Of a stretch of DNA of 64,000 nucleotides, positions 8,986-30,812 are shown one piece after another. Location: the IMG/VR virus record IMGVR_UViG_3300035670_000033, positions 1 to 64,000 of that record. One strand, 5' to 3'. The stretch's first letter is position 1. Each line of letters begins with the position of its first letter. This DNA is from a virus. A program made the translations under genes and the position numbers. The notes beneath the pieces were generated by a model. It saw nothing but the letters and a program-made list of their open reading frames with translations. It was not told the origin of the DNA and did not search any database.

Positions 8986-9942
8986 ATGCCGTTTCTTAAT
9001 AGAATCGGGCAAGGTAGTTCCCGTAGGTTTGGTTTTTCAAAGATCCTTCGTTTAGCGGCTTTCTTTGATGCGTTCACTCGTTCCAATAACGCAAGTGCTG
9101 TTGGTGGTGATGCTCCTTGGGTGGCTACAAGCGGAACTTGGGGTATTTCAAACAACAATGTTGTTACTAGCACCGCGGCTGGTTCATATCCTCTGTTAAC
9201 TTTTGATGCTTTGTCAACAGATTCTGTTGTGAAAGCGACCCTTCCAACTACGAAGTCGGCGGGAGCAGGTGTTGCTTTCTGGGTGACAGATAATGATAAT
9301 TGGTGGGCGGCAATAGCAGATAAAACTGATTACAACGCTGCACCATACAACTGTCCTACGAACGGAACGAACGTTGCTGTTGTGAATAACTCAACTGGGA
9401 ACTGTTCTTACAATACGACTGGCGGTGGACCGTATCCTGCGGTTGGTGGCGGACCTTATGGAGCCTGTGCGTGTAACGCTGGAACTGTATTTGGTTGTGG
9501 TTGCTTCTATTATTATGAAAACCCACCTAACTGGTGGACTTTTTCTCATCCAGCCTACGGGTACACACAGCCAGCACCATACAACTATTATGTTCAAAGC
9601 GCACCATACAACTACACCCCAACAACATATGCTGGTGTGCCAACTCCATGGAATCGTTCACAGATTAAGGTCATCAAAAAAACGGCGGGCACAGTTTCAA
9701 CCGTGAGCACCACACAGGTAGGTGACGCAACATCCAGCCAGTATTTGACTTACATTCAGGCACAAACAACAGCGAACGGTGCAACAGTAACAACAGCGTT
9801 AAGTTCTGCACCCAACACCGCGATAACAGCACCCGCAATATCAATCGGAACACCAATCCCTGCAACAAAGTTTGGAATTGTTTACGCTCCTGCTACAAAC
9901 AATGCGAGTTCAGCCATAGTCCGTTTTGACTATAATGAATAA
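8986..9942 (+). CDS. Virion protein with split lectin-like fold
   Basis: 318 residues with a strong AAGGAGGAG site. Residues ~20-110 (FDAFTRSNNA..GISNNNVV..VAFWVTDNDNWWAA) and ~220-318 (QIKVIKKTAG..FGIVYAPATNNASS) look like two halves of a concanavalin/LamG-type beta-sandwich. Between them is a ~100-residue insert very rich in Cys, Tyr, Pro and Asn (CACNAGTVFGCGCFYYYENP). The split-fold reading is inference; a carbohydrate- or surface-binding role is plausible. Confidence 0.65.
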   Translation: MPFLNRIGQGSSRRFGFSKILRLAAFFDAFTRSNNASAVGGDAPWVATSGTWGISNNNVVTSTAAGSYPLLTFDALSTDSVVKATLPTTKSAGAGVAFWVTDNDNWWAAIADKTDYNAAPYNCPTNGTNVAVVNNSTGNCSYNTTGGGPYPAVGGGPYGACACNAGTVFGCGCFYYYENPPNWWTFSHPAYGYTQPAPYNYYVQSAPYNYTPTTYAGVPTPWNRSQIKVIKKTAGTVSTVSTTQVGDATSSQYLTYIQAQTTANGATVTTALSSAPNTAITAPAISIGTPIPATKFGIVYAPATNNASSAIVRFDYNE

Positions 9943-9951
9943 GGATTAAAA

Positions 9952-10119
9952 GTGCTTAGTAAAGAAAAAGTGGACGAGCGACTTTCAATATGTAGGGGAT
10001 GTGAACGGTTTTTTCGTTTCACCTCTACTTGCAGAGAGTGCGGTTGCTTTATGACTATCAAAACACAAGTCGCATCAGCGTCTTGTCCACTAGGAAAATG
10101 GAGTAAACATGGCTCATAA
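9952..10119 (+). CDS. Small zinc-ribbon protein, CPLGKW family (copy 1)
   Basis: 55 residues with a GTG start and AAGGA eight bases upstream. Pattern: CRGC, then CRECGCFMTIK and CPLGKW, giving five to six Cys in zinc-ribbon spacing. Two relatives lie at 13288-13443 (-) and 16171-16398 (-), each beside 2OG oxygenase or glycosyltransferase genes. It overlaps the next gene by 11 bases. Molecular role unknown; a small metal-binding adaptor fits. Confidence 0.7.
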   Translation: MLSKEKVDERLSICRGCERFFRFTSTCRECGCFMTIKTQVASASCPLGKWSKHGS

Positions 10120-10399: not shown

Positions 10400-10798
10400 A
10401 TGATAACCGAAATTTTACCCAGTAGTCAAGGACCAGTGGTCATTCATGATGGCATGGTTCTTCATCTTTCCGACTCGGAAGGCATGTGTATAGCAATTGA
10501 TGCACATCCAGAACTGTTACAGAATTTACAGGATTCCATTGTTGAGTTCGTAACCACTGTTACTGAATACAACTTGGAGATGTTTACCACTAAACGCCTC
10601 CCTGATTCTAAGATCATGAAAGAAGCCGTTCAAAGCATGGACACTTTTTTCAACTTGGCATATGTTGTTTATAAGGGTCATATGGAGCAAAAGGTGATTC
10701 AGAATAACCCTAGTTTGCCGAGAGAAGCGGTTCCAGCAGAAGTTATTAGAACCAATCATCCTGTGATAAATGCTTTCTACAAGTTTGAAGCACGATGA
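10400..10798 (+). CDS. Hypothetical phage protein
   Basis: 132 residues, preceded by GGAGG. It starts with a beta-rich half (TEILPSSQGPVVIHDGMVLHL) and ends with helices. The ATGA junction with the following 2OG oxygenase suggests coupled translation and a possible partnership. No family recognised. Confidence 0.6.
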   Translation: MITEILPSSQGPVVIHDGMVLHLSDSEGMCIAIDAHPELLQNLQDSIVEFVTTVTEYNLEMFTTKRLPDSKIMKEAVQSMDTFFNLAYVVYKGHMEQKVIQNNPSLPREAVPAEVIRTNHPVINAFYKFEAR

Positions 10799-11388
10799 GC
10801 GATGTTCTGATTGGGCGTCCGGTTGATAACACGGTTTACACTCACGCAACTTTAGCCAACACTTTCACACGAGCGGAGTGTGAAACAATCATTGGTCTTG
10901 GTTTGGAAAAATTAGAGCAAGCCAAAATAGCCAACGGTGAAGTAGAGAACAAGACTAGGAGTTCAAAAGTCAACTTCTTGTTTCCGTCGGAAGAAACAAA
11001 ATGGATTTTTGACAGAATAAAAGAAGTAACCGACAATGTTAATGACAGGTTGTTTCACTTTGATTTACGATATTTCCCGAATGTTCAGTTCACCTCCTAC
11101 TCCACGGGCGATTATTATGACTGGCATATGGATCTAATTCCAAATGAAACACAGCAACTTTTTTCGCGAAAGTTGTCTTTATCGGTTGTTCTTTCAGACC
11201 CTCTTGAACATGAAGGAGGGGAGTTGGAGATAAACAGACATGCTAACGATAGTTGTGAAATCGCGCTGAAACCAGAGCAGGGGACAGTTGTATTTTTCCC
11301 TTCTTTTATTCAGCATCGCGTAACCAAAGTAACCAAAGGAACCAGATACTCTTTAGTTGTTTGGGTGGAAGGAGATAAGTTCAAATGA
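10795..11388 (+). CDS. 2-oxoglutarate/Fe(II) oxygenase, prolyl-4-hydroxylase type
   Basis: 197 residues. Iron ligands of the double-stranded beta-helix are visible: H111-M-D113 in YYDWHMD, distal H174 in FIQHRV, and R184 in GTRYSLVVW as the 2-oxoglutarate anchor. HEGGELEI and GTVVFFPS are also typical of the PKHD group. Such enzymes hydroxylate Pro, Lys or other side chains. Coupled by ATGA to both neighbours inside a fibre-gene region, so a virion protein is a possible substrate (inference). Confidence 0.85.
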   Translation: MSDVLIGRPVDNTVYTHATLANTFTRAECETIIGLGLEKLEQAKIANGEVENKTRSSKVNFLFPSEETKWIFDRIKEVTDNVNDRLFHFDLRYFPNVQFTSYSTGDYYDWHMDLIPNETQQLFSRKLSLSVVLSDPLEHEGGELEINRHANDSCEIALKPEQGTVVFFPSFIQHRVTKVTKGTRYSLVVWVEGDKFK

Positions 11389-12143
11389 GTAAAGAGTTAG
11401 TTATCTATTGGGCACCTTGGATCTTGCGAGGTGGAACTTCAACGCAACAAGATTTCTCAGGACCTAGCGAAATAATGTTTACACCCCCAACCAGCCTTTG
11501 GTCGGAACTCACAACACAACTTTACGATCAGAGTGTTTCACGGAACTTCTTTCAATGTCCAGCAGTAAAAGACACCCTTACCCCAACTTATGTTATTTAT
11601 AACCCGCTTACAAGTTCGGCAGAAGTTGAAATAAAAGACAGTGGTGAAGTAGGTGAAGTAAGACAACAACCGGGTCGTGATTCTCAGATCAGAGTTACAA
11701 TGCCTCACGCACCTTCGCTGACAAATCAATTACTAGTTGTCTACAACCTTCAGCACATATTTTTTGCAGAAGAACCAGTTCTTATGAGATTGACATCACC
11801 ATGGTTTCACAAAGCGCCACACATGCAATACGGTTCTTTGATACCGGGGAATTACGATATTGGGCGATGGTTCAGACCAATAAACTTTGAATACAACCTT
11901 TGGGACGGAGGAACCAAACTATCTATAGAGGCTGGAGAACCACTTGCCTATGTTGAATTCGGAACAGATCGCAAAATAGTTTTAAAAAGATTTGAAGCAA
12001 CAGAAAAACTGCACACAATTGGGGCGGAAGTTATTCATGCCCGTTCTAAAAAGTGGAAAACACTTGGATCAAGATACGAACTCTTTGACCGTTCACCGTT
12101 AAGAAAAATTATTCTTAAAGAGATTTCGGGAAATCTTCTGTGA
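11385..12143 (+). CDS. Hypothetical protein in oxygenase operon
   Basis: 252 residues, beta-rich with many aromatic residues (VIYWAPWILRGG at the start, YNLWDGGTKLSIEAGEPLAYVEF later). It has no HxD/H set of its own and no signal or membrane segment. It is coupled by ATGA to the oxygenase before and the DSBH protein after it, so it may be a partner or substrate of these enzymes. Not recognised. Confidence 0.6.
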   Translation: MSKELVIYWAPWILRGGTSTQQDFSGPSEIMFTPPTSLWSELTTQLYDQSVSRNFFQCPAVKDTLTPTYVIYNPLTSSAEVEIKDSGEVGEVRQQPGRDSQIRVTMPHAPSLTNQLLVVYNLQHIFFAEEPVLMRLTSPWFHKAPHMQYGSLIPGNYDIGRWFRPINFEYNLWDGGTKLSIEAGEPLAYVEFGTDRKIVLKRFEATEKLHTIGAEVIHARSKKWKTLGSRYELFDRSPLRKIILKEISGNLL

Positions 12144-12655
12144 TATTTTTAGAGAGTTCAAATCTGATAGAAAAAAACCTTCAGGGATTTGAAGGGATAC
12201 TTGACTTCGCCCGTTTTAAATTCAACGACATTTATGGGCACACCGAATTCACAAAAGCATACCCAAACTACAATGTTTTTAGCCTCACAGCCACAGACAG
12301 TCTTATGTATTCGTTGTTTAAAGAACTTCAATTAAAGGTGCGTTCCGTATTGGGGGATCAACCGCTTTGGATGCAATGCTGGATGAACCATCACACACAG
12401 TACGAGGTTCTTGACTGGCATGATCACAATTTTCCGTGGCACGGCTATATCGCGATAGACCCCAAGAAAACAAATACCGTATTTGAAGACTTCACAATTG
12501 AAAACAAACCCGCACAGATATACTTTGGCGAAGGAAACAAAAAACACAAAGTTGAAGTGTTGGAGCCTTATGAAGGTCACCGAATTACGCTCGGCTTTGA
12601 CATTACGAACAAATCAGGAGAGAGGAGTAAGTATGTCAGTTTTATACCCTTCTAA
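12140..12655 (+). CDS. Putative DSBH/2OG oxygenase-like protein
   Basis: 171 residues. The core VLDWHDHNFPWHGYIAIDP supplies a candidate HDH metal pair and EPYEGHRITLGFDI a distal His-Arg, in the order and spacing of a double-stranded beta-helix oxygenase. The pair is not the usual HxD, so either a divergent oxygenase or a cupin-like relative. It overlaps both neighbours (4 and 23 bases). Confidence 0.6.
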   Translation: MIFLESSNLIEKNLQGFEGILDFARFKFNDIYGHTEFTKAYPNYNVFSLTATDSLMYSLFKELQLKVRSVLGDQPLWMQCWMNHHTQYEVLDWHDHNFPWHGYIAIDPKKTNTVFEDFTIENKPAQIYFGEGNKKHKVEVLEPYEGHRITLGFDITNKSGERSKYVSFIPF

Positions 12656-13271
12656 CACAGGTAAAGAATCTTTCAGTTTGGGCGAACATATTGCTGTTTG
12701 GGATAATTTCTTTTCACCAGAACTGTGCAACAAGTTTATTGCGTTTTTTGAGTACCGTTCAAAGATGGCTTTTAAAAGAAACAACAGCATGAAACAAGAT
12801 GCTTCAGTTAATTTTGGTACAGAAATAGGTTTAAGAGAAGAAATCAATACAGAGTCTGTGTTTATAGATAATTCTATGAGCGATCAGTGTTTGCCTGAAT
12901 TTTTGACCAAGTTTTGGGATGTTTGTTTTCCGATGTATTTGGAGAAGTATCCGCATCTTGCTTCTAGTACCGCTAAATGTGATTTTTCGGTTATAAAACT
13001 TCAGAAAACACTTCCCAAAGAGGGTTATCATGTTTGGCATTGCGAGCAGGGGGATATAGCGACTTCCAGAAGAATGGCTTTCATCATCTTGTATCTAAAC
13101 GACGTTGATGCGGGTGGTGAAACAGAGTTTATTTATCAGTCGGCACGGGTGCATCCGATGCAAGGGCGTTTAGTTTTGGCACCTGCATCCTATACACACA
13201 CCCATAGAGGTAATCCACCACTGAGTGGGGCAAAATATATTTTGACTTCTTGGCTAGAGTTTCAGCAGTAA
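12633..13271 (+). CDS. 2-oxoglutarate/Fe(II) oxygenase, HxE variant
   Basis: 212 residues from the ATG at 12633, which has GAGAGGAG upstream; longer starts would run deep into the previous gene. The motif VWHCEQG gives H136 and E138 in place of HxD, GGETEF follows, distal H189 or H191 is in YTHTHRG, and K201 stands where Arg is usual. HxE is known from some members of the superfamily. It overlaps the upstream gene by 23 bases and ends the rightward oxygenase run. Confidence 0.75.
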   Translation: MSVLYPSNTGKESFSLGEHIAVWDNFFSPELCNKFIAFFEYRSKMAFKRNNSMKQDASVNFGTEIGLREEINTESVFIDNSMSDQCLPEFLTKFWDVCFPMYLEKYPHLASSTAKCDFSVIKLQKTLPKEGYHVWHCEQGDIATSRRMAFIILYLNDVDAGGETEFIYQSARVHPMQGRLVLAPASYTHTHRGNPPLSGAKYILTSWLEFQQ

Positions 13272-13287
13272 GGTAGTTGAATTGCAT

Positions 13288-13443
13288 TTACCATTTGCCC
13301 AAAGGGCATGATTGGTCGGGCATTTTCGTTTTGATTTTCATGAAGCATCCGCATTCTTTGCATTGTGCTGTTATTTTGAAGAATCGTGGGCATGCTAGGC
13401 AGATGGCGTATCGTTCGTGTGCTTCTAGTTTTTTGTTTTCCAT
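13288..13443 (-). CDS. Small zinc-ribbon protein, CPLGKW family (copy 2)
   Basis: 51 residues on the minus strand. It contains CLACP, CKECGCFMKIK and CPLGKW and aligns with copies 1 and 3 along its whole length. It lies immediately downstream of the 2OG oxygenase at 13444-13914, the same pairing as elsewhere. Convergent with the gene ending at 13271. Confidence 0.7.
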   Translation of the reverse strand: MENKKLEAHERYAICLACPRFFKITAQCKECGCFMKIKTKMPDQSCPLGKW

Positions 13444-13914
13444 TTAGTTTTTTACCCAAAAGTATGAGGTTGCGTATCGGTCGCCTCGTGTTATTTCTTT
13501 GACCCCATGATAGATTGGGTTTACCCAATAGATGAGTGATCCTGCTTGGGGTTTTATTTCTGTGTCGTCTTGTGGGAAATATATTTCTCCGCCATCAAAA
13601 TCTTTGCTCCAATATACGATTGATGAGTAGTCGGGTTTTGTGTCTCTTTTTGTGAAGTCAATGTGGACGTCTTGTTTGTCTCCAACACTAAAAATACTGT
13701 ATTGAAGCCCGGAGTATTCGTAGTCTGAGATTGTTTCGTCAAATTCTTCTTCTATCAACGACTTGACTCTTTGTTTTATTGTGTCGTAGTTCAGTGTTGA
13801 AGGGAAACTTGGGAAAGAATCTTTTGGTGTAGTTGAAACATGTTGGGCGAACAGGTCTAGTTCTTCAACGGTCAAAACATCATGAATATAGTGAATCAGT
13901 CCCATTGGTACCAC
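13444..13914 (-). CDS. 2-oxoglutarate/Fe(II) oxygenase
   Basis: 156 residues, compact PKHD type. H84-I-D86 in DVHIDF, DGGEIYFP, AGSLIYWVNP, H136 in IYHGVKE and R146 in RGDRYATSYFW complete the active site. Starts at 13914 or at the nearby Met at 13905. It overlaps the end of the upstream tandem oxygenase by 19 bases. Substrate unknown. Confidence 0.85.
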   Translation of the reverse strand: MVPMGLIHYIHDVLTVEELDLFAQHVSTTPKDSFPSFPSTLNYDTIKQRVKSLIEEEFDETISDYEYSGLQYSIFSVGDKQDVHIDFTKRDTKPDYSSIVYWSKDFDGGEIYFPQDDTEIKPQAGSLIYWVNPIYHGVKEITRGDRYATSYFWVKN

Positions 13915-15218
13915 TTTACCACCGAATAGCGGATACCAATTTTCACCGGATGCACTTGATGCATGTACGGGAAAGATGAGGAAAACACGACAACATCACC
14001 AGCATCAGGTTTTATTTTTATTCCAAATTCTTTGAATTCCAACTCCCCACCCTCAAAATTGTCATTAAGAAACATTGAAACAGACACGATTCGCGGATAG
14101 GTTTTCGCCTCGTCAAAATGATTATGAAACATGTTCCCCGGCTCGTACCGCAGAAGAACTGTGTGATGCGATTTTATTTCTGGAATACTGTAGCGACTTC
14201 TGTAGTCAACAACTATTTTGTCAATACCAAGTTCTAAAGATTTTTTTGCCCTTACTATTGGGTCTTGTGGGTGACATTCATCTTGTTTTGGTGATAGAAA
14301 ATAGTTAAAGCAGTTTCTTGCGCTATTTTCAACTGTTGGTTTTCCATCAATCAAAACTTCTGCTGGCACCCACTGTTGGAACATTGAGTTCTGTATTAAA
14401 CCTTTTATTACACGGGCTGAATCTTTGCCAGTTTTGTACAGGATGATGCCGGGCGCTAGTTCTTGTTTGAATTGTATTTCAATCTCAGATATTTCCGTAT
14501 CTTCCTCGTATGCATAACCAACGATTTCTTCATAGAGATTCAACGTCTGACTATAGTCATGGCATGCGCATACTGGTTGATTGATCGGACCATCTGGCAT
14601 GGCAAGAAATCTGTTGCGGTTAAAGAACCTTATATCGCCATCTTTACCGTGCGCGTTGAAGCCACTCTTATTTTTTTGTATCCAGTGATCTGGCTGTGTA
14701 AAATGCAAAAATAAACATATCGTGTATTTGTCTATATCGGTAGTTGGGTAAGGTGGTCTTGAATGGGTTTGTTGTTGACCACCAAAAATAATTGCGTCGT
14801 TGATGTTTTGTTCAAAGTGTTTTTCTTCAACTATTAAACCCCAATTGGCAGTATTTTCTATTGCTATATCAATTGTTGTTTGCGTCCCATTTTGATCTAA
14901 GTGTTCCCATAAGTGTGGTATACACCCATCTTTTATTTGGTATCGGACAGCATAAAAATAGGCTTTTTTTAATGTGTCGTCGTTGAATATTTCTTTTGCC
15001 TTTTCTAGGCAATATCTCTCAATGTCGTCATCAAATTCCACTGATGTTTCCCATCTTGCAAGCATTGTGTGGAACGTTGACGAATCTGTGCCCATACCAG
15101 TATTGTCTATCGCAGTTTTCACTCGTTCAAACATCTCATCTGAGAAAAAATTTGCGACTATTTTGGGCTCGGACAAAACATCTGGAAGTTCAAAAGATGG
15201 ATTTTTGGTTATTGGCAT
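13896..15218 (-). CDS. Tandem two-domain 2OG/Fe(II) oxygenase fusion
   Basis: 440 residues from ATG 15218; an in-frame TTG at 15290 would add 24 residues but overlaps the upstream gene. The C-terminal domain (~330-440) is a canonical PKHD oxygenase: H367-F-D369 in FHNHFDE, FEGGELEF, H420/H423 and R430. The N-terminal domain (~20-180) has a second DSBH-like set with H102 and E105/H106 (PHLWEH) and H152 (QTHSRPPYP). A joining region of ~150 residues includes CACHD. A fusion of two oxygenase-like domains could modify a repetitive substrate. Confidence 0.75.
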   Translation of the reverse strand: MPITKNPSFELPDVLSEPKIVANFFSDEMFERVKTAIDNTGMGTDSSTFHTMLARWETSVEFDDDIERYCLEKAKEIFNDDTLKKAYFYAVRYQIKDGCIPHLWEHLDQNGTQTTIDIAIENTANWGLIVEEKHFEQNINDAIIFGGQQQTHSRPPYPTTDIDKYTICLFLHFTQPDHWIQKNKSGFNAHGKDGDIRFFNRNRFLAMPDGPINQPVCACHDYSQTLNLYEEIVGYAYEEDTEISEIEIQFKQELAPGIILYKTGKDSARVIKGLIQNSMFQQWVPAEVLIDGKPTVENSARNCFNYFLSPKQDECHPQDPIVRAKKSLELGIDKIVVDYRSRYSIPEIKSHHTVLLRYEPGNMFHNHFDEAKTYPRIVSVSMFLNDNFEGGELEFKEFGIKIKPDAGDVVVFSSSFPYMHQVHPVKIGIRYSVVKWYQWD

Positions 15219-15267
15219 GAGTTTACCAGACCAACCTGATTGAGGAGTGAAAAAAATTATCCATTTT

Positions 15268-16161
15268 CTAATACAATTCTCTGTATTCAAACACAGAATT
15301 TGGAAGCACTGTTCTTATGTCAATGTCAAAACCATAGTGATAATTTTTATTCACTTTCAATGCTTCAAAAACTGTTTTTTCGCTTGAAAATATTCCGTTA
15401 TAAAACGCCGTACCCAACAGACCAGATATTTTTTCTGCTTGGTTAAAAATAGACGCTTGATCTAAAATGTCCATGCCGGATAATTGGACTATTTCGTACC
15501 CCTTGTTGGCGTAATCTTTTTCTATCTCGTCTTCTAGATTGGGATCAACATAGCGTAATCTCATCTGTTCATTCTTCCAATTCTGAAGAACATGATTCCC
15601 GCCTACCGGGTGGTTGGGCAAATTTTCTGAAACTATCTTTCTTGACAGATAAATATTTTTGCCAAAATTATTTTGTTTTATAAATGGAAGAATACTTTTC
15701 CGTAATTCGTTATTTATTCCGGGGGTGTATGAGTAATTTGGTTGTTGATACGATTCGCCCATAATGCATTTTTGTGAGTCAAAAAGAACGACAAGTTTCT
15801 CTATGTGCAGATTCGTATTGAATGCATTGTTGATTGTTGTTCCATCGTAAATTTGACTAGAGCAGTATTTGCAAACATTGCCCATATTCTGGTATGCAGG
15901 ATAGAAGTAGTCGTTTTCTATCCAAAGATATTTTGCGCTTGAATCATACTTGCTCTTATAGTAAAGATAAAAACCATAGTATTCTTTTAAAAAATGAAAA
16001 TAGTGTGGGGTGCAAGTTATTGGAATATGTGTTCCGCTAAAAAAAACAAAACTGTCTGATAGTGGATTGTTTTTGATTCTTACGTTCTCAAATATTGATA
16101 TTGATCCGTCGGAATCATTTTCAACTGTATGGGAGTCATAAGTTGCATTTCTTATGAGCAT
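15268..16161 (-). CDS. Putative GT61-family glycosyltransferase
   Basis: 297 residues. The C-terminal half has the GT61 (DUF563) layout: NIYLSRK, a spaced NE/R region, NKGYEIVQLSGMDILDQ, an A-KISGLLGTAFYNGIF segment and a terminal beta pair. Family members transfer sugars to proteins or polysaccharides; no signal peptide is visible, so a cytoplasmic enzyme. It sits between 2OG oxygenases, a CPLGKW protein and fibre genes, which suggests sugar transfer to a virion protein or to host surface precursors (inference). Confidence 0.65.
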   Translation of the reverse strand: MLIRNATYDSHTVENDSDGSISIFENVRIKNNPLSDSFVFFSGTHIPITCTPHYFHFLKEYYGFYLYYKSKYDSSAKYLWIENDYFYPAYQNMGNVCKYCSSQIYDGTTINNAFNTNLHIEKLVVLFDSQKCIMGESYQQPNYSYTPGINNELRKSILPFIKQNNFGKNIYLSRKIVSENLPNHPVGGNHVLQNWKNEQMRLRYVDPNLEDEIEKDYANKGYEIVQLSGMDILDQASIFNQAEKISGLLGTAFYNGIFSSEKTVFEALKVNKNYHYGFDIDIRTVLPNSVFEYRELY

Positions 16162-16170
16162 TTTTGATTT

Positions 16171-16398
16171 TTACCATTTGCCGAGAGGGCATGTTGCTGA
16201 TTCAATTTTAACTTTTAGTTTCATGAAACAACCACATTCTTTGCATTGTTTTGTTGCTTTAATCAAACTTGGGCATTCTTCGCATAGTGAAAAACGTTTC
16301 TGTGCCGTATCCTCTGATGCTTGAGGGATGTTTGGGTTAAGCACATCCCATGGGCGTGTTGTACCCAACTTTTTCTTGTATTCCTGCCATGCGTTCAT
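16171..16398 (-). CDS. Small zinc-ribbon protein, CPLGKW family (copy 3)
   Basis: 75 residues, longer than copies 1 and 2 by a basic/polar N-terminal extension with WDVLNPNIPQASEDTAQKR. The conserved part has CEECP, CKECGCFMKLK and CPLGKW. Located 10 bases upstream of the GT61 gene in the same direction, so probably co-transcribed. Confidence 0.7.
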   Translation of the reverse strand: MNAWQEYKKKLGTTRPWDVLNPNIPQASEDTAQKRFSLCEECPSLIKATKQCKECGCFMKLKVKIESATCPLGKW

Positions 16399-16413
16399 TT
16401 CTAGGATTCTATC

Positions 16414-16644
16414 TTATGCAGGAGGATGGAAGCCAGATTCGTCATGGGTGTATCCCTCAACGACGACATCTTTTTGTTCTTCTGAAAGAACCATAACCTT
16501 TGGGTCAGAGGAAAGGGCTGCTACCTGAAGGGGCATGAATTCTGTCCTGAACGGGATAATTGTAGCCACTTCGCCGTCTACGACAAAAGCAAAGTAGGTG
16601 AAGTCTTCCTTGTTCCAAGTTGTTGGTTGTTGATGTTCTGACAT
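16414..16644 (-). CDS. Hypothetical small phage protein
   Basis: 76 residues with a clear AAGGAG upstream. Beta-rich first half (YFAFVVDGEVATIIPFRTEF), then a helix and an acidic tail. No Cys or membrane segment. It lies between fibre and modification genes. Not recognised. Confidence 0.6.
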   Translation of the reverse strand: MSEHQQPTTWNKEDFTYFAFVVDGEVATIIPFRTEFMPLQVAALSSDPKVMVLSEEQKDVVVEGYTHDESGFHPPA

Positions 16645-16668
16645 ATATCTCCTTTTATGACGATTTTA

Positions 16669-17376
16669 CTAGCAACCCGGTCCGTCGCAGTAAACGTTGT
16701 ACGTAATAGCGCAACTTGTTGCCCTGTAGTCTATCTGGAAACAGTTTCCAGCACCTTCATAGCATTTTCTTCCGCTGTTGTAGTAAAGAGCCGTGCAAGG
16801 TGCGGGTGGTGTCACAGGTGGTGTCACAGGTGGTGTCACAGGTGGTGTCACAGGTGGTGTCACAGGTGCTGGTGCAACATAACCGCAAACTCCATTTCTG
16901 TACGCTGGGTTATATCCACCCTCCCCTGGGCACCCGCCGCATCCACCTTGGTAATATTCATAACTTAAGGTACCTTCGCAGGTGTAACCAACAAATTGAA
17001 GCGTGCAATCACACGGTGCAACAGGCGGAGTCACTGGTGGTGTAACTGGTGGTGTGACTGGTGGTGTAACAGGTGGGACTACAGGGGTTACCGCAGTTGA
17101 AGCACTAGAAACATTACTCACACCATAACCACTAATAGTCGTAACCGTAAAAGTATAAGCAGTCCCATTACTCAAACCAGTAACAACAATAGGGGAACTA
17201 GAACCGCTAGCAGTAAACCCACCTGGCGAAGAAGTAGCCACAAAAGTCGCTGTACCCTTACCATCATAAACAGGCAAAGTAAACGACACAGTTGCCTGCC
17301 CGTTACCCGCAGTAGCCGAAACAGATGTCGGCGGATCTACATACTTTCCTTGGCTAGAAGTGTTGCCCGGAATCAC
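16669..17376 (-). CDS. Fibre-like protein with FnIII domain and PVTPP repeats
   Basis: 235 residues. Residues ~15-105 form a fibronectin type III domain (PTSVSATAGNGQATVSFTLP .. GLSNGTAYTFTVTTISGYG). Then come two PVTPPVTPP tracts around a Cys-rich module (CDCTLQFVGYTCEG .. GGCGGCPGEGG), and a second Cys-rich end (PAPCTALYYNSGRKC .. YCDGPGC). Proline-rich Thr-containing repeats are classic hydroxylation and O-glycosylation targets, and the modifying-enzyme candidates lie next door. The start overlaps the stop of the upstream fibre (ATGA). Confidence 0.7.
   Translation of the reverse strand: MIPGNTSSQGKYVDPPTSVSATAGNGQATVSFTLPVYDGKGTATFVATSSPGGFTASGSSSPIVVTGLSNGTAYTFTVTTISGYGVSNVSSASTAVTPVVPPVTPPVTPPVTPPVTPPVAPCDCTLQFVGYTCEGTLSYEYYQGGCGGCPGEGGYNPAYRNGVCGYVAPAPVTPPVTPPVTPPVTPPVTPPAPCTALYYNSGRKCYEGAGNCFQIDYRATSCAITYNVYCDGPGC
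16808..16866 (-). repeat. 12-bp tandem repeat encoding PVTPP units
   Basis: Five near-identical copies of GGTGGTGTCACA on the plus strand, each encoding four residues of the VTPP repeat. Near-identity at DNA level implies recent expansion and likely length variation between relatives. Confidence 0.75.
17034..17078 (-). repeat. Second, degenerate 12-bp PVTPP repeat tract
   Basis: About three to four copies of GGTGGTGTAACT-like units with third-position changes (AACT, GACT, AACA). Older or less homogenised than the tract at 16808. Confidence 0.6.
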
Positions 17377-18074
17377 GAGGCACTCAAATCACCCATCAAC
17401 ATCCAAATGTTTGTGTCGCACTTTAATAGAGTTGCCGACGAGTATTGTGCACGCAAAAAGTTTCCGGGTGTTGAGTAAATGACAACCCCTGCACCAGCGA
17501 CTTGTGTTTTTCCTGTCCCATATTGAATGATGTGTATTTGGGTTCCGATTGGGAATGCGACAGAAGCGTTAGTTGGTACCGTGACGGTGTTCGCTGTTCC
17601 TACGCTCATTTTGATGAACTTTGTTGCGTCCGTGAGCACCAAAGTGTAGTTTGCGGACTTTTCGTCAATTGTTGCTACTGCTAGTTTGCTGAGTTCAATA
17701 GCGGCGGAGGTGTTAATGTCTGCATTGACTATCGTTCCGTCAACAATTTTTGCACTTGTTACGGAATTGTCGGCAAGTTTTGCGGTTGTCACAGCAAGAT
17801 TATTGATTTTTGCTGTTGTTACTTCACTGTCATCCAACTGTGCGCCGATTTCATTCCACTGGTTGTCGTTGCCGTATAGATACAGTTTGTTGTCGGAAAA
17901 CAGGTAGCAAACACGACCTGGGCTTAAAGTCGGCTCACCAACACCGCCAAACGCGGCATCACGAGCAGCGCTGTCCGCAAAATAAGCGACAGTTTGATCC
18001 ATTAGGTATGTGTTTATCTGCGATGCCAAAAGTTGGCTACCAGCGGAAAACAAGCGAACGCCTGCACCAGCCAT
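17373..18074 (-). CDS. Tail fibre protein
   Basis: 233 residues. N-terminal adaptor (1-75), then the fibre-shaft pentad repeats VTTAKLADNSVTSAKIVDG, and a C-terminal beta domain (ANYTLVLTDATKFIKMSVGTA ..) paralogous to that of the 7936-8976 fibre. Coupled by ATGA to the FnIII/PVTPP protein; the two may assemble together. It is the first gene of the leftward run, with a 101-base gap to the divergent large gene. Confidence 0.75.
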   Translation of the reverse strand: MAGAGVRLFSAGSQLLASQINTYLMDQTVAYFADSAARDAAFGGVGEPTLSPGRVCYLFSDNKLYLYGNDNQWNEIGAQLDDSEVTTAKINNLAVTTAKLADNSVTSAKIVDGTIVNADINTSAAIELSKLAVATIDEKSANYTLVLTDATKFIKMSVGTANTVTVPTNASVAFPIGTQIHIIQYGTGKTQVAGAGVVIYSTPGNFLRAQYSSATLLKCDTNIWMLMGDLSAS

Positions 18075-18175
18075 TTAAACCTCTGTTGCTTTCTTGAAAG
18101 TTATTTAGATTATACATCAAAAGACCTTATTTTTAATGAGGACAAATGTTGTAAAATTATTCTCGGGGTTCTTCA

Positions 18176-21100
18176 TTGCTTCAACGGTTCACTTTGGCAT
18201 TTCGGCGTGTGTCAGCGCTCATCGTCTCGTTAGTACTGCTTGCTCTTTTTGTCCCTGTCTCTGCCGCTGAAGCAACATTTACAAGCCTTACAACGATTTC
18301 TGACAGTCAAGGGTTCCTCCAAGGTCAGTTCGCCGAGGTTGGGGTAAGGGCTAATGGTGCTTTTGGTTCAACTAGTGTTCCTACTGGTTTTCATCAAAAC
18401 TCTGGCACCTGTCTAGGTTTCCGCGTAGACCGCGAGATGGACGGATGGGGTGAAACCATTGATGATGGTGACTTCTTTTGTCCGGGTTCCCCTTTTGAAG
18501 GTTGGCAACTCAAAGTTGGTTCAGTAGCCAAAAACGATCACAGTCAAACAGGTGTTTCTGGCTCTGTTTCTGCTCCGCAAGCCTCTGGTTCGTCACAGTG
18601 TGTTTCGTGGGTTAGTGCAAGCCCATATAACGGTGTAAGTGTAGAACAGCGTTACTGTGTGCCAACCGCAGGTCAAGCGCTACACACCGATGTCACACTA
18701 ACGAACACGACAGGTTCTGCCATTTCTGATGTTTATTTTGGTCGCGGTTTTGATCCCGACAACTTCACTGGAACAGGGACAGTTCCCGATTGCGGTGGAG
18801 CACCCGCAAGCACGAGCACTTTTCAATCCTGTAACGCTGTAACAGGTCAGGGGACGGAGGCTCAGGCAACAGCCCGTTGGGGTAACGGTGCGTTTATTGC
18901 TTTACAATCTTTTGATGCTCGTGCCCGTGTAGCGCGTCAGGCGGGTGGTTTTTCTTCACCTGATCCATCAGATATTTGGACTGCTGGCGATACCTCTGCT
19001 TCATCAGGCACATATTACGGGAACATCGGTGAGTTTCAGGCTGACGCTGGTCTTTATGTTGCCCTTAAAGTTGAAACATTGGGCGCTGGCGCTTCAACAT
19101 CTTTCCGTGTTAGTTACGTCCTTTCCGCTGAAGGAAACAACGCCCCAGTAGTTGGTGCGCCAGTAGTTAGCGGAATTGGGCAAACAGGTGCCCATGTTGC
19201 CACAACGATCAACCCTAAAGGTTATTCAACAACAGCAACACTTGTTTATTCAACAAACTCAGACTTCTCTTCTTCGGCTTCTGCGCCAATGGGGACTTTT
19301 ACTGGTAGCGAAGAATTAACGGCTGAAACGGACATAACAGGTCTTGACCCAAGCGAGACTTACTATGCAAAGGTTGTTGCCACTAATGAAACTGGCACAA
19401 CAGAATCGGCATTATTCAACTTTGACACTCTTGATGCGACTGCGCCAATTGTCTCTTCAGAGGAACCAACGGTAACAGTTGATGATGGTCCTGTAACCCT
19501 TTCAGGAACATTAAACCCTAACGGTTTTAGTTCTACTGCAACATTCCAATACAGCACGACTGCCGATTTTTCTGGCACGGTAGTTGATGTCCCTGTTTCT
19601 GGAACTTTTGATGGAACATCACTTTCAACGGTTTCAACAGTTGTTTCAGGTCTGACTGGTTCAACCACATACTACTTCCGTCTTAAAGTAACTAACGACT
19701 CTGGTTCTGCATACGGTTCAACAATTTCTTTTGTGCCAGCAGACATACCTGCACCAACATCTTTGGTCGTAACAAGCCTTGATGACACAACCGCAAACGG
19801 AACACTTCGTTGGGCGATCACTCAAGCAAATGCCACTGCTGGTGGAATTTACGATGAAATCACCTTTGGCGTTGATGGAACAATAAATTTGTCAAGCGCG
19901 CTGCCACAGATAACACAAAACGTAACCATTACAGGTAACGGTAGGGTACAGACAATCATTGACGGTAATAATCTATATCGCCCGTTCAATGTTGGCTCAG
20001 GTAGATCGCTAACGATTTCCAACATGACTCTCAAGCAGGGTCAAGCAACTAACGGCGGTTTGGTATTCAACGGTCAAGGAACAGTTATTGCGACAAACAT
20101 CAGATTTACGGGGATGACTGGTGGTTCTGCCGTATTCAATAACAATGGCGGGTCAACTGCGACTTACACAAACTGTACTTTTGACTACCTCAATAACGGC
20201 ATTGCTGGCGACTATGGCTCAACACCACAACTTGCCACTGGCGTTACAACATGGGCAAGCGAGCCAGACTCGGTTTTCCAAAACAGAACATATGTAGATA
20301 ACTGTGTATTTGACAACAACAATGCTGGTATATACAACTATCGCTTCACAAAAGTAAATAACTCAACATTTACAAATAACAGTTACGGCGCTCATGTCAC
20401 TGGTTTGAATCGCACCCAAATACTGAACTCCACATTCACTAATAATGGTATTGGTGTTTATCACAACTCATGGATCCCTACTTCCTTTAACATGGGAGTG
20501 GACAACCGTTTGATTAGTGGAAACACCTTCACCAATAATGGAATTTCCATCTATCTTGATGACACCTATAACAATGGTCAAAAAAACCAATCGTGGTCAA
20601 CCATCACAGGCAACACATGGGACGCTCTCGGTGTTTGGGTTCGTCACTATCAACACAACGGAACCACGAATGCAGAAGGGACTGCACGCCCTTACACAAC
20701 AGGAACGGTATTCGCACAAAGTTCAAACACATTCCCCGACACAATTATTGCCCCAAGCAACCTAACGGCAACCGATACTGGTACAGGAATTCTTCTTGAC
20801 TGGGATGCACCAGTTGGTGGTGGCTATCTTCCTGAACGGTACGCAATTTCGTGGTCGGGGAGTCTTGGTGGAGGTGGAATCGCTACTGGAAATGTCGGTG
20901 GTGCGAATGCGCTGAATACATCAATTGAAATCCCGTATTCGGTCATCTATTCATTCGGCGAAGAGGGTGAAACATTTGCTTTCCACATCCGCTCAGATAA
21001 TGACACCTACAGTAAGTATTCCGCTAATTCAAATACTGTTTCAATTCAAGTTGGCACTTCTTCAAGTACAACGACTACGACTTCCACCGTTCCCGACGCC

Positions 21101-22816
21101 CCTCCAGTGACAGAAGTACCAACGGGGACATCGTTGCCAGAAACACCAATAACAACCATAACGGTGACGCCGTTGCCAGAAACACCAGCAACAGACGGAA
21201 CAGATCCCATGATTCCGCCAACAGAGACAGGAACAGATCTAGAACCATTACCTGATTATACCGTCCCTACAGAAGAACCCATCGTTCTCCCTGAGATTCC
21301 CGACGCTGGCGAACCTATAACAACGGGCGACCTCACAGACATTCTGGATACAACTTTCACGCCTGATGCATCCACGGAAGAAATCACTGCGGTGCTTGAT
21401 GGTTTGTTACGCACGGAACTAACTGGTAAACAGTTTGATGCTGTTATTGATGCAACTCTTGGTTCGCTTGATGAGCCGGGTGCTGATGTTGGTGCTGTTC
21501 TTGACACATTCCTAGATGCAGATCTCAGCGACAAAGAGTTTACGAAAGTTCTTGATGCTGTGTTCTCTGAGGATGTTTCTGCTGAAGTTTTCACTGAGGC
21601 TTTAACAACGATGCTTAGTGCAGACATTAGTGATGCTGAGTTTGCGAAAGTTCTTGATTCAGCGTTTTCTGCGGATGCTTCTGCTGAAGCAATGGTTTCT
21701 GCTCTTGGCGCGATATTTGACGGACCAGTAAGCGCTGGCGATGTTTCCACAATTATGGACGCGGTGTTTGACGAAGACATTTCTGTTGCGGACGCTGGTG
21801 CTGTTTTGAGTGATCTGCTTTCAGGTGATTTGTCTGGTGCAAGTCTTGAGGCTGTGTTTGACAGCGTCTTTGACGGTGACCTTTCTGCTGGCGACACTGT
21901 GGCTCTTGCTAAAACCATTCTTGCTAAGCCGTTGAGCGATGAAGAGTTCGGCACTGTTATCAATGCGATCTTTGACGAAATAGTTTCTGACGAAGTATTG
22001 GTTGGCACTTTTGGCGCTGTTTTGGATACAGAACTAACGGTAGAGAAGTTTGCTGAAGTTGTCAATGTTCTTGAAAACGCAAATATCACAAATGATCAGG
22101 TTTCACAAGTGGTTGATTTGATCGTCAGCCAAGATGGGGGTGTCTCTGGTGAACAAGCGACGGAACTGGCAACAAGCCCCAAGGTACTTGAAAGCATTGA
22201 CGGTGAACAAGCGTCGGCAGTGTTTAGCGCAGTCGTTGTTGCCGAGGTCTCGGAAGAAGCGGGTGCTCAAATTGCCGAGGCACTTGCGAACGCGGGAACA
22301 GATGTAAAAGAATCTTTTGAAGAAGAGATCAATGTGTTCGCTGGCGTGTTTGATACCTATGTCGCTTTGGGTTCAACTATTGATGTTGGTGACCGTCGTA
22401 CTGTTATTGCGGTTGGCGCTGCTGTAGTTGCTGTTGCTGGTGTTATTGGGGCTGTTGGAGGCTCTGGTGGTGGCTCTGGTGGCAATTCTGGTGGTGGTTC
22501 GCCTCAGGGTTCTAATAACAACGTTGCTCGCAAGCCTGAGGAAGAAGAAATGAATGGTGAAATCGCAGGCGATGGCGTGGAGTGGATAAAAGAACTTTCT
22601 ATTTTCAGGTATAATAATGGAGTTAAAATTTTAGATTGGGGTCTTTTTGTGAAAAAACTATTTTTTGGTTTCATTAACCTTGGTTTCACTATTTCGGGTT
22701 CGCTCGTTGTCTATTTGACACTTTCGGGGGATATTCAAACGATCGCTGGTGTCTCGTCGGTTTTGGCTCTTATTGGTGCACTGTATCTGCACATGAAGGA
22801 ACCTGACAACAATTAA
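18176..22816 (+). CDS. Large secreted, membrane-anchored surface protein with beta-helix
   Basis: 1546 residues from TTG 18176 (no earlier start in frame; GTG twelve codons on is an alternative). In order: signal peptide (~1-31, ends VSAAEA); an N-terminal beta domain with paired Cys (~32-325); two fibronectin-like domains (~326-530); a right-handed beta-helix with ITFGVDGTINL and NCTFD/NSTFTNN rungs (~540-880); another FnIII; a Thr/Pro linker; ~19-residue repeats of the LSDxEFxKVLDAVF type (~1075-1340); a Gly-rich part and two hydrophobic helices at the end. It looks like a bacterial surface protein rather than a virion protein. Confidence 0.75.
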   Translation: MLQRFTLAFRRVSALIVSLVLLALFVPVSAAEATFTSLTTISDSQGFLQGQFAEVGVRANGAFGSTSVPTGFHQNSGTCLGFRVDREMDGWGETIDDGDFFCPGSPFEGWQLKVGSVAKNDHSQTGVSGSVSAPQASGSSQCVSWVSASPYNGVSVEQRYCVPTAGQALHTDVTLTNTTGSAISDVYFGRGFDPDNFTGTGTVPDCGGAPASTSTFQSCNAVTGQGTEAQATARWGNGAFIALQSFDARARVARQAGGFSSPDPSDIWTAGDTSASSGTYYGNIGEFQADAGLYVALKVETLGAGASTSFRVSYVLSAEGNNAPVVGAPVVSGIGQTGAHVATTINPKGYSTTATLVYSTNSDFSSSASAPMGTFTGSEELTAETDITGLDPSETYYAKVVATNETGTTESALFNFDTLDATAPIVSSEEPTVTVDDGPVTLSGTLNPNGFSSTATFQYSTTADFSGTVVDVPVSGTFDGTSLSTVSTVVSGLTGSTTYYFRLKVTNDSGSAYGSTISFVPADIPAPTSLVVTSLDDTTANGTLRWAITQANATAGGIYDEITFGVDGTINLSSALPQITQNVTITGNGRVQTIIDGNNLYRPFNVGSGRSLTISNMTLKQGQATNGGLVFNGQGTVIATNIRFTGMTGGSAVFNNNGGSTATYTNCTFDYLNNGIAGDYGSTPQLATGVTTWASEPDSVFQNRTYVDNCVFDNNNAGIYNYRFTKVNNSTFTNNSYGAHVTGLNRTQILNSTFTNNGIGVYHNSWIPTSFNMGVDNRLISGNTFTNNGISIYLDDTYNNGQKNQSWSTITGNTWDALGVWVRHYQHNGTTNAEGTARPYTTGTVFAQSSNTFPDTIIAPSNLTATDTGTGILLDWDAPVGGGYLPERYAISWSGSLGGGGIATGNVGGANALNTSIEIPYSVIYSFGEEGETFAFHIRSDNDTYSKYSANSNTVSIQVGTSSSTTTTTSTVPDAPPVTEVPTGTSLPETPITTITVTPLPETPATDGTDPMIPPTETGTDLEPLPDYTVPTEEPIVLPEIPDAGEPITTGDLTDILDTTFTPDASTEEITAVLDGLLRTELTGKQFDAVIDATLGSLDEPGADVGAVLDTFLDADLSDKEFTKVLDAVFSEDVSAEVFTEALTTMLSADISDAEFAKVLDSAFSADASAEAMVSALGAIFDGPVSAGDVSTIMDAVFDEDISVADAGAVLSDLLSGDLSGASLEAVFDSVFDGDLSAGDTVALAKTILAKPLSDEEFGTVINAIFDEIVSDEVLVGTFGAVLDTELTVEKFAEVVNVLENANITNDQVSQVVDLIVSQDGGVSGEQATELATSPKVLESIDGEQASAVFSAVVVAEVSEEAGAQIAEALANAGTDVKESFEEEINVFAGVFDTYVALGSTIDVGDRRTVIAVGAAVVAVAGVIGAVGGSGGGSGGNSGGGSPQGSNNNVARKPEEEEMNGEIAGDGVEWIKELSIFRYNNGVKILDWGLFVKKLFFGFINLGFTISGSLVVYLTLSGDIQTIAGVSSVLALIGALYLHMKEPDNN

Positions 22817-26988: not shown

Positions 26989-27759
26989 TTACATTTCGGT
27001 TGTGATGACCATGTGGTCGTCGTAGGTGTATTGGCTTTCTGGTGGTGTTGTGTCTACCACAAGCATTCTCATGAGCCATCTGTCTGTGCCGTCGTATCGG
27101 GCTGTGAATGACTTTCTTCCGTGAACGAGTTTTCTGTTGTCCAATATTAGGACATCTCCTGTTTGTAGGATGATTTCTTTGGTGTGTTTTTTGATTGATG
27201 TGAGCAGTTTGTCTAATGCTTCTTGCGCTTGGAAGGTTTTACCTCTCATAAAATATTCGTCAAAACAGATATGTGTTCCTTCTGTTGTGTCGGTGAGTAT
27301 TGGTAAAAGTATGTTTTTGTTTGGTTCTCCGTGGGTTCTGAAACTTTCATCAATTGATGTGATGAACAACGGTTCTTTTAGGTAGAAGATTGTTTCTTCG
27401 TCTAGGGAGGAGATGATTTCGTCAACAATTGCGAAGGTTGTGGCTGCTTGTAGGTCTTGTCTGAGGCACATGAGCAAAACGTGTGATGGGGCGTATGGGT
27501 GGAATGCTGTTTCTGTGTGTAGTTCTAGGTTTGTTTTTGATGATGACGATATTTGGGTGGATTCGGTTTTTTGTATAGGGAAAATGTGTTGTATGAGTCT
27601 TCCGTTTTGTTCTTGTTTGTATGCGGTTGGGAGACCGTATTTGTATGCGATTCGTTTTAGGGCGTGTTCTGCGTGTTTGATTTCTGGAACTTGGTCTAAG
27701 GACATGGGGGTGGCGGGTATTTCCCCTATGTCTACGCCTTTGAACAGTATCCAACTCAT
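26989..27759 (-). CDS. TauD/CAS-like 2OG-Fe(II) oxygenase
   Basis: 256 residues. The iron site is H81-T-E83 in LELHTETAFHPYAPSH and H213 in NRKLVHGRKSF, with R227 in DRWLMRM binding 2-oxoglutarate. HxE and the NRxxxHGR phrase are typical of the clavaminate synthase-like branch, whose members hydroxylate free or carrier-bound amino acids such as Arg or Asn. A small-molecule target is therefore more likely than for the PKHD enzymes above. Coupled by ATGA to the regulator upstream. Confidence 0.8.
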   Translation of the reverse strand: MSWILFKGVDIGEIPATPMSLDQVPEIKHAEHALKRIAYKYGLPTAYKQEQNGRLIQHIFPIQKTESTQISSSSKTNLELHTETAFHPYAPSHVLLMCLRQDLQAATTFAIVDEIISSLDEETIFYLKEPLFITSIDESFRTHGEPNKNILLPILTDTTEGTHICFDEYFMRGKTFQAQEALDKLLTSIKKHTKEIILQTGDVLILDNRKLVHGRKSFTARYDGTDRWLMRMLVVDTTPPESQYTYDDHMVITTEM

Positions 27760-30188: not shown

Positions 30189-30812
30189 GTGACAACGATC
30201 GTAGGGATACAAGGAGACGGATACTGTCTCATAGCAGGAGACACCCGTATTACTTCGGTGGATAGCAACGGCATCGGATATCAGATCAACACTTTGAAAC
30301 CCGAAACATCCAAGATAGCGGTAAACGGCAAATATCTGATCGGTACAGCAGGAGACCTAAGAGCAATCAACCTGCTCACCCACACCCTCACACCACCAGT
30401 ATGCCCACCCACCCTAAGAGGCAAAAAACTTGATGAGTTCATCACAAACAAACTGATCCCCTCAATCCGACAAATGTTTGAACAAAACGGTTACACCGTC
30501 AACGAAACCAACACCAACAGCAACAAAGCCGAACATGACTCCGAAATGCTCATAGCAATCAACCAAACCATCTATCTCATAGACGGCGACTACTCATGGT
30601 TCACAGACACCACAGGAATCTATGCCCTCGGCACAGGAGCAGCATACGCCCTCGGAGCCCTACACAACATGCCACCAGCCAAAAACCCTGCCCAAGCCAA
30701 AAAACATGCCCTCAAAGCCCTAGCCACAGCATCCAAATACGACCCCAACACAGGCAACCCATACCACACCCACATCCAACAAACACAACAAAAAACGGAT
30801 AAACCTAAATGA
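30189..30812 (+). CDS. HslV/proteasome-beta-type Ntn hydrolase
   Basis: 207 residues, GTG start. After Met removal the protein begins TTIVGIQGDGYCLIAGDTRI, which is the HslV/proteasome beta start with Thr1 as nucleophile, Asp17 and Arg19. Lys41 in the ETSKIAV segment takes the Lys33 role, GTAGDLRA follows, and IYALGTGAAYALGAL matches the late GSG..A..A region. No propeptide. HslV has ~175 residues; here a ~25-residue polar tail is added. It would form a ring protease or a smaller hydrolase; no unfoldase gene is adjacent. Coupled to WhiB by ATGA. Confidence 0.8.
   Translation: MTTIVGIQGDGYCLIAGDTRITSVDSNGIGYQINTLKPETSKIAVNGKYLIGTAGDLRAINLLTHTLTPPVCPPTLRGKKLDEFITNKLIPSIRQMFEQNGYTVNETNTNSNKAEHDSEMLIAINQTIYLIDGDYSWFTDTTGIYALGTGAAYALGALHNMPPAKNPAQAKKHALKALATASKYDPNTGNPYHTHIQQTQQKTDKPK

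Follow-up and report, generated by a model that had tools for sequence, protein, structure and literature searches.

Do the 2-oxoglutarate (2OG)/Fe(II) oxygenases that a virus encodes among its tail fibre genes act on the fibres themselves? The question is raised by the first 64,000 nucleotides of a virus record of 138,071 bp (IMGVR_UViG_3300035670_000033), a stretch called the window here. A preliminary description had proposed that five 2OG oxygenase-like genes, a GT61-type glycosyltransferase gene and three CPLGKW zinc-ribbon genes between fibre genes form one island, whose products would hydroxylate and then glycosylate a fibre with PVTPP repeats. Comparison with other viral genomes indicates that the minus-strand part of this island is a cassette, built around an oxygenase with two 2OG domains, that recurs in other phages behind a fibre rich in Pro and Cys. 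In the explanation that we consider best, with somewhat better than even confidence, the cassette is mobile and its products hydroxylate a Pro-rich fibre, which some phages also glycosylate.

Organization of the island

The island spans 6.5 kb among fibre genes and holds all four 2OG genes detected by profile and all three genes of DUF6171, the family of the CPLGKW zinc ribbons, whose profile is a C-terminal CxxC...CxxCG...CPxGKW (about 9943-10119 on the plus strand; 13288-13443 and 16171-16398 on the minus strand). Fibre assignments are based on gene context and PHROGs tail families. The clustering among fibre genes was seen correctly, but the island is not a single unit: it consists of two convergent runs, 10795-13271 on the plus strand and 18074-13288 on the minus strand, and the conserved cassette does not include the plus-strand oxygenases. 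On the minus strand the genes are as follows, in order of reading, those from 18074 to 13444 forming the core.

17373..18074, minus strand: tail-fibre or minor tail protein (PHROGs phrog_8780, C-terminal region, 4.3e-26)
16669..17376, minus strand: Pro-rich fibre, proposed substrate (by sequence; an open reading frame (ORF) with Pro repeat and Cys recurs upstream of the tandem 2OG gene)
16414..16644, minus strand: small conserved protein, 76 aa, resembling small ORFs of the tail-assembly-chaperone type (putative function)
16171..16398, minus strand: DUF6171 CPLGKW zinc ribbon (PF19668, 2.9e-7)
15268..16161, minus strand: GT61 glycosyltransferase (PF04577), an optional, exchanged element
13896..15218, minus strand: tandem 2OG-Fe(II) oxygenase (profile, alignment and fold)
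13444..13914, minus strand: single-domain 2OG-Fe(II) oxygenase (PF13640, 2.6e-9; 69% identical to its counterpart in the neighbourhood of L003, a related locus)
13288..13443, minus strand: second, shorter DUF6171 CPLGKW zinc ribbon, 51 aa (22.3 bits, under the cut-off)

The PVTPP repeats noted earlier in the 16669 product form two blocks: an FnIII-like N-terminal part is followed by (PPVT)n, a Cys-rich segment, a second (PPVT)n and a Cys-rich tail. Homologs of the 17373 product occupy the equivalent position in most cassettes. The 76-aa protein has a relative of 84% identity in L003 and weakly similar or size-matched ones in other cassettes.

The remainder of the record was examined by profile search only. 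Across all 138 kb, 2OG profiles are confined to 11.1, 13.0, 13.5-13.9 and 13.9-15.2 kb and DUF6171 to 10.0, 13.3 and 16.2 kb; the profiles detected no further 2OG gene (PF13640 or tandem-2OG type) and no further DUF6171 gene. Chance clustering was rejected, given this confinement and the recurrence of the arrangement in 26 lineages, and an ORF artefact was rejected after six-frame checks.

The tandem 2OG oxygenase

The two 2OG domains described for the 13896 product were confirmed. The C-terminal domain matches PF13640 (2.6e-17), and the N terminus forms a second double-stranded beta-helix (phrog_2954, 1.4e-8). The start is most likely ATG 15218, not TTG 15290, because the relatives begin there, and the gene therefore does not overlap the GT61 gene. 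Numbered from this ATG, the HxD...H residues of both halves (H106, D108, H152 and H367, D369, H420) are invariant in 24 sequences. As judged from alignment and structural model, the protein is a member of the 2OG-Fe(II) oxygenase superfamily with both active sites intact.

The model (pLDDT 86) has prolyl hydroxylases as its top solved fold matches: Tpa1, Pseudomonas PPHD, Chlamydomonas prolyl 4-hydroxylase (P4H) with (Ser-Pro)5, vCPH, Dictyostelium PHD and human PHD2. Yeast Tpa1 is likewise a tandem. Structures of the ASPH type are absent from the 50 best fold matches. Sequence-profile matches include PKHD enzymes, Bacillus anthracis P4H, P3H1, PiuC, vCPH and EGLN1. By its closest relatives in both fold and sequence, the enzyme falls with the prolyl 4-hydroxylase family, and it is likely, as a prediction, to be a prolyl hydroxylase.

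Recurrence of the cassette

With the tandem enzyme alone as the query, two near copies were found, together with a relative of 59% identity in a phage of another type (L004), which by sequence has portal, capsid and tail genes alongside. The gene order there (fibre, FnIII-PPVT-Cys fibre, small gene, CPLGKW zinc ribbon, tandem 2OG) is that of the window minus GT61. Alignment scans of IMG/VR placed the tandem 2OG gene in about 46 loci from 26 phage lineages, all 26 of which carry a DUF6171 gene. By six-frame search, a same-strand ORF with a Pro-rich repeat and then at least four Cys was found in 23 lineages, mostly 0.5-2.1 kb upstream of the tandem gene. Reading of the misses by eye revealed PFFPP and APVI repeats with Cys in L294/L295, and PPVV repeats between Cys modules in L301/L302/L311. 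The sole remaining lineage is L142, whose contig begins about 1.2 kb upstream, and in this space lies a split gene of the GT60 type. Wherever the upstream DNA of a lineage is long enough, a fibre with Pro repeat and Cys-rich segment and a zinc ribbon precede the tandem enzyme.

The tandem form was not found among cultured phages, nor in bacterial or archaeal genomes, so that neither a host nor a prophage could be assigned. Among cultured phages, the most similar arrangement is that of the Synechococcus isolate S-IOM18 (L150, record 17852-21815), where genes for a fibre, a Cys-rich COLFI-like tip, a thioredoxin-like small protein, DUF6171 and a 2OG-like protein, assigned by motif only, are consecutive, without PVTPP. 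DUF6171 genes of cultured Stenotrophomonas, Acidovorax and Leptospira phages have no 2OG gene annotated nearby. A split form of the cassette is seen in L009 and nine further loci, in which a cupin/JmjC-like protein of about 190 aa (5788-6372 in L009), possibly another oxygenase, is encoded between the two single 2OG genes.

Linkage from the fibre and from GT61

Co-occurrence across phages had been suggested as a check, and linkage was found from PVTPP, tandem-2OG and GT61 starting points. A search for PPV(S/T) repeats by degenerate DNA pattern, made without regard to the enzymes, gave at least 119 stretches. Among the matches listed, 47 loci had the whole repeat ORF and over 1.5 kb of sequence downstream and formed the tested set; the counts in this paragraph all refer to these matches. 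Loci were classed as Cys-tailed when at least four Cys occurred within 80 residues after the repeat. A 2OG gene lies within 6 kb in 26/26 Cys-tailed loci versus 0/21 others (p=8e-14); the figures are 20/26 versus 0/21 for DUF6171 and 9/26 versus 0/21 for GT61 (p=0.0025). For dereplication, the repeat ORF was masked and loci sharing 800 nt at 70% identity in single high-scoring segment pairs were collapsed, which left 2OG genes in 7/7 versus 0/20 clusters (p=1e-6). At the loosest threshold (300 nt) the positives fuse into two clusters and p is only 0.005; this merging probably arises via the cassette genes themselves. A Cys-tailed locus outside the 47 (L021) seemed negative but is truncated, and a longer contig copy (L267) has the zinc ribbon, a GT60-type gene and 2OG.

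A scan with a GT61 alignment gave 32 loci, 28 with 2OG genes and 22 with a Pro/Cys fibre in the fetched stretch. The four loci devoid of 2OG are short flanks that begin inside a radical SAM-GT61-GT4 sub-cluster, which in longer copies sits about 4-6 kb downstream of the cassette. One GT61 lineage (L163-L165, L167) has 2OG genes and no Pro repeat. As a background, only two Pro/Cys features occur among about 70 phage GT60-type loci outside cassettes. Searches of cultured phages with the PVTPP fibre and with GT61 gave no matches; a single-sequence viral scan with GT61 also gave none, and the alignment-based scan succeeded.

Oxygenases that occur without fibre genes as a rule would have spoken against the proposed system. 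This pattern is not that of the tandem family, but it does hold for the generic 2OG enzymes of phages; in Synechococcus phage Sf-FS3, for example, they are encoded among tRNA genes.

An exchangeable glycosyltransferase

The assignment of the 15268 product to GT61 stands on profile and model: PF04577 scores 37.8 bits against a cut-off of 27, and the only PDB structure that the model (pLDDT 87) matches significantly in fold is POMGNT2, which acts in protein O-glycosylation (TM-score about 0.5). Two unrelated phages, L134 and L135, carry a GT61 of 67% identity at the equivalent position; identity between their tandem 2OG enzymes and that of the window is only 57-58%. GT61 is thus found between zinc ribbon and oxygenase in three phages of different types. 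In L129, a relative of the window phage, the tandem 2OG is 68% identical, whereas GT61 is only 31% identical and lies on the other side of the oxygenase. In another relative, L132, the tandem 2OG is fused to an HPAT-like domain (PF23452, 27.5 bits against a cut-off of 23.9; relatives score up to 39.7 bits, and five relatives lie away from Pro-repeat genes). Enzymes of the PF11397 type, which we take to be the Pfam family of the Skp1-hydroxyproline GlcNAc-transferase, are encoded close to cassettes in L014, L139, L142, L144 and L313. It follows from these patterns that the hydroxylase-fibre pair is constant and the glycosyltransferase variable: it is optional and exchanged, as GT61, as a GT60-type enzyme or as an HPAT-like domain fused to the oxygenase.

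The combined system of the preliminary description is partly supported, and better so than a first reading of the sequence could have known: the linkage of oxygenase, PVTPP fibre and GT61 genes is real, recurrent and specific, but the glycosyltransferase is optional.

Three observations concern the surroundings of these enzymes. A sub-cluster of DUF6065-like, radical SAM/SPASM, GT61 and GT4 genes recurs about 4-6 kb downstream of PVTPP cassettes in one phage group (L105, L087, L185, L187). A protein that by eye resembles flavin-dependent tryptophan halogenases is encoded near the HPAT-2OG fusion of L132 (15869-17341, minus strand). In Synechococcus phage S-SCSM2R (L149, 228299-237051), a 2OG gene is followed by several glycosyltransferase genes, including one annotated as GT25, and by radical SAM and amidinotransferase genes, with no fibre gene annotated in that stretch.

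Modularity

The Pro-fibre genes of L046 and L126 have unrelated sequences up to the repeat, but the Cys tail that follows it is 86% identical. Upstream genes of the two phages do not match, and those that follow are again similar (small gene 74%, zinc ribbon 71%, tandem 2OG 84% and the next gene 82% identical). With the breakpoint at the repeat, the natural unit is therefore the Pro-repeat/Cys tail with the enzymes, not FnIII with the enzymes. As far as gene sequences tell, the arrangement is a real, recurrent and modular cassette across unrelated uncultured phages.

Proposed mechanism and alternatives

The minus-strand genes from 18074 to 13444 would be a cassette for fibre modification that can pass between phages. 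In the infected cell its tandem 2OG enzyme, here together with the single 2OG, would hydroxylate the Pro-rich fibre of the phage itself; proline residues of the (PPVT)n stalk blocks are the likeliest targets. Help as adaptor or chaperone may come from the DUF6171 zinc ribbon and the small protein. Where a glycosyltransferase is present, here GT61, it would then put sugar on the hydroxylated or Thr-bearing stalk, and the outcome would be a stiff, protease-resistant, variably glycosylated fibre stalk. A change in receptor binding or in escape, as put forward in the preliminary description, would be a hypothetical consequence.

We infer the fibre as the substrate, proline as the residue, the attachment of sugar there and the biological effect, with unequal confidence. 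That the 2OG enzyme acts on the Pro/Cys fibre is very probable. The repeats associated with the tandem enzyme include PPVT, PPVV, VTAP, VSPVDP, PFFPP/APVI, QPPVEP, VTP and FPVDPG; every type contains Pro, whereas Thr is inconstant, and this favours Pro as the residue hydroxylated over simple O-glycosylation of Thr. Action on proline is accordingly the probable choice. Favoured a little less firmly is action of the glycosyltransferase, in phages that have one, on this protein too. Hydroxyproline itself as the carrier of the sugar is a possibility that falls slightly short of even, and it is only tentatively suggested that a mobile "hydroxylate, then decorate" system, in which the exchanged glycosyltransferase sets the type of fibre glycan via hydroxyproline O-glycosylation, is common to diverse tailed phages.

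Several points weigh against this account. The Cys tail is as constant as Pro, and what correlates perfectly with 2OG in the PVTPP scan, among the matches listed, is the Cys module and not a Pro repeat by itself. The fold of a 2OG enzyme does not tell its substrate, and in sequence the tandem enzyme is no closer to prolyl hydroxylases than to PKHD enzymes with other or unknown substrates. Joint inheritance of a cassette can produce linkage without direct action. Most tandem-2OG cassettes have no recognised glycosyltransferase, and phage GT60-type and HPAT-like genes lie mostly away from 2OG and Pro-repeat genes. The names of these two families are therefore weak evidence for a hydroxyproline acceptor, and they were rejected as proof of it.

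The constancy of the Cys tail fits another substrate. By analogy with ASPH and EGF modules, 2OG might hydroxylate small disulfide-type modules, which GT61 might then glycosylate as EOGT, itself a member of GT61, does in EGF repeats. Among the matches listed, a Cys module is found wherever the 2OG enzymes are, and Pro repeats without Cys never have 2OG neighbours; moreover, a zinc ribbon and 2OG are also found behind Cys-rich fibres without (PPV)n, at 8986-9942 in the window and, with 2OG by motif only, in S-IOM18. These facts leave that alternative a real share, yet we regard it as unlikely: the Cys modules vary in sequence and length and show no common acceptor motif by eye, whereas Pro is shared, and the fold matches are prolyl hydroxylases, with the ASPH type missing from the best 50. 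Slightly less unlikely is a narrower version of the preferred explanation, so that its probability overlaps with it, in which hydroxylation alone is the function, giving a stiffened polyproline-II stalk, and the glycosyltransferases serve another virion protein or a host glycan. The many cassettes devoid of a glycosyltransferase agree with it, as do the GT60-type and HPAT-like genes common elsewhere in phages, but it does not account for GT61 in the same slot of three different phage types, the HPAT-like fusion in L132, or the presence of GT61 in 9 of 26 PVTPP/Cys loci versus 0 of 21 others among the matches listed.

It is distinctly improbable that the enzymes act off the fibre, on host surface glycans, on host proteins such as EF-Tu or on a small molecule, and merely ride in a fibre locus. 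Fibre loci are recombination hot spots, which favours such hitch-hiking. So do the halogenase-like gene near the L132 cassette and bacterial P4H enzymes, which modify EF-Tu as indicated in PDB record 5v7y. Hitch-hiking leaves unexplained the 26/26 versus 0/21 distribution, the fixed gene order and strand, and the breakpoint within the fibre gene at the Pro repeat.

Relation to known systems

In plant and algal hydroxyproline-rich wall proteins, P4H action is followed by HPAT or other O-glycosylation. The phage cassette resembles this system in its Pro/Val/Thr/Ser-rich repeats, its P4H-type enzymes and, in one phage version, its HPAT-like domain; it differs in that the wall proteins are made in the eukaryotic secretory pathway, and its main glycosyltransferase is GT61. 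PBCV-1 vCPH (PDB 5c5t), a viral prolyl-4-hydroxylase fold, is among the best fold matches, but it is a single-domain enzyme of an algal virus with about 20% identity in structural alignment. Mimivirus L230 and other collagen-modifying enzymes of giant viruses likewise pair a viral 2OG hydroxylase with a glycosyltransferase, both believed to modify a repetitive structural protein of the virus itself; there, however, a eukaryotic giant virus hydroxylates lysine on collagen-like G-X-Y, without a phage fibre cassette (PMC9546862, PMC9614988). In the Dictyostelium Skp1 pathway, a cytoplasmic prolyl hydroxylase is followed by a GlcNAc-transferase, to which the PF11397 enzymes of some phage cassettes correspond, but the target is one proline with a regulatory role in oxygen sensing instead of a repeat in a structural protein (PMC3515798). 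Mycobacteriophage virion glycosylation, as proposed, also has phage glycosyltransferases modifying virion proteins, but with other acceptors and no hydroxylase step (PMC11256854). At the gene level, the cassette links hydroxylase and glycosyltransferase genes to a putative repetitive structural substrate, as in virus-encoded modification of structural proteins.

Phage 2OG oxygenases are abundant and lack an assigned substrate, and the cassette offers a concrete candidate for one class of them. The PHROG 61 enzymes, which belong to the same superfamily (PMC12774648, PMC3037559), were found with Phold to be structurally similar to human prolyl hydroxylase EGLN3, with no substrate given (PMC12774648). 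For cyanophage 2OG enzymes, DNA repair or modulation of 2-oxoglutarate has been proposed (PMC2984593, PMC3037559). These earlier proposals involve no fibre link, and no tandem form was found among cultured phages. In the open-access literature searched, with subscription literature and preprints outside the search, no paper was found that brings phage tail fibres together with prolyl hydroxylase and hydroxyproline, or that treats a prolyl hydroxylase and a glycosyltransferase of phages along with tails and collagen-like proteins. If the explanation is true, it would describe the first system by which a phage hydroxylates its fibres, and the first case beyond giant viruses of a viral prolyl hydroxylase and glycosyltransferase that are tied as a pair to a swappable fibre module, within the literature searched. 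The cassettes would then also supply small cytosolic hydroxylase-substrate pairs usable in Escherichia coli. On the more tentative "hydroxylate, then decorate" reading, phages would have a variable fibre coat built by hydroxyproline O-glycosylation, a chemistry known mainly from eukaryotes so far.

The plus-strand run and other genes

The plus-strand oxygenases at 10795 and 12633 follow another Cys-rich fibre, outside the conserved cassette. The order is Cys-rich fibre, DUF6171, small genes, 2OG (10795), a phrog_17480 protein (11385), a phrog_2696 protein (12140) and 2OG (12633).

8986..9942, plus strand: Cys-rich, PYNY/APYN-rich putative fibre heading the plus-strand 2OG run (by sequence)
9943..10119, plus strand: DUF6171 CPLGKW zinc ribbon, the third of the island, in an open frame that immediately follows the 8986 fibre (30.4 bits, over the cut-off)
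10795..11388, plus strand: 2OG-Fe(II) oxygenase of PKHD/phrog_61 type (PF13640, 3.9e-18; phrog_61, 5.7e-37)
12140..12655, plus strand: possible 2OG/cupin-type protein, unproven (phrog_2696)
12633..13271, plus strand: 2OG-Fe(II) oxygenase of phrog_61 type with HxE...H (PF13640, 4.2e-9; phrog_61, 8.6e-40)

Of the five 2OG-like genes first described, the profiles recover those at 10795, 12633, 13444 and 13896, but the gene at 12140 is suggestive only: it matches phrog_2696, a family of unknown function, and phrog_81 at 8.9e-4, and searches of Pfam and PDB gave no match.

Adjoining the cassette on the opposite strand, an ORF of 1546 aa (18176-22816, plus strand) encodes a large surface-type protein with a signal peptide, FnIII-like and parallel-beta segments, a T-rich linker, a repeated acidic block and C-terminal transmembrane helices; it has relatives in L127/L129 and L132. 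A 256-aa protein that by eye resembles oxygenases of the TauD/clavaminate-synthase type, and is not a PF13640 member, is encoded at 26989-27759 on the minus strand and is 49% identical to a protein of L134. The protein encoded at 30189-30812 on the plus strand by eye resembles the Ntn-hydrolase/proteasome-beta type, and its relative in L129 is 50% identical.

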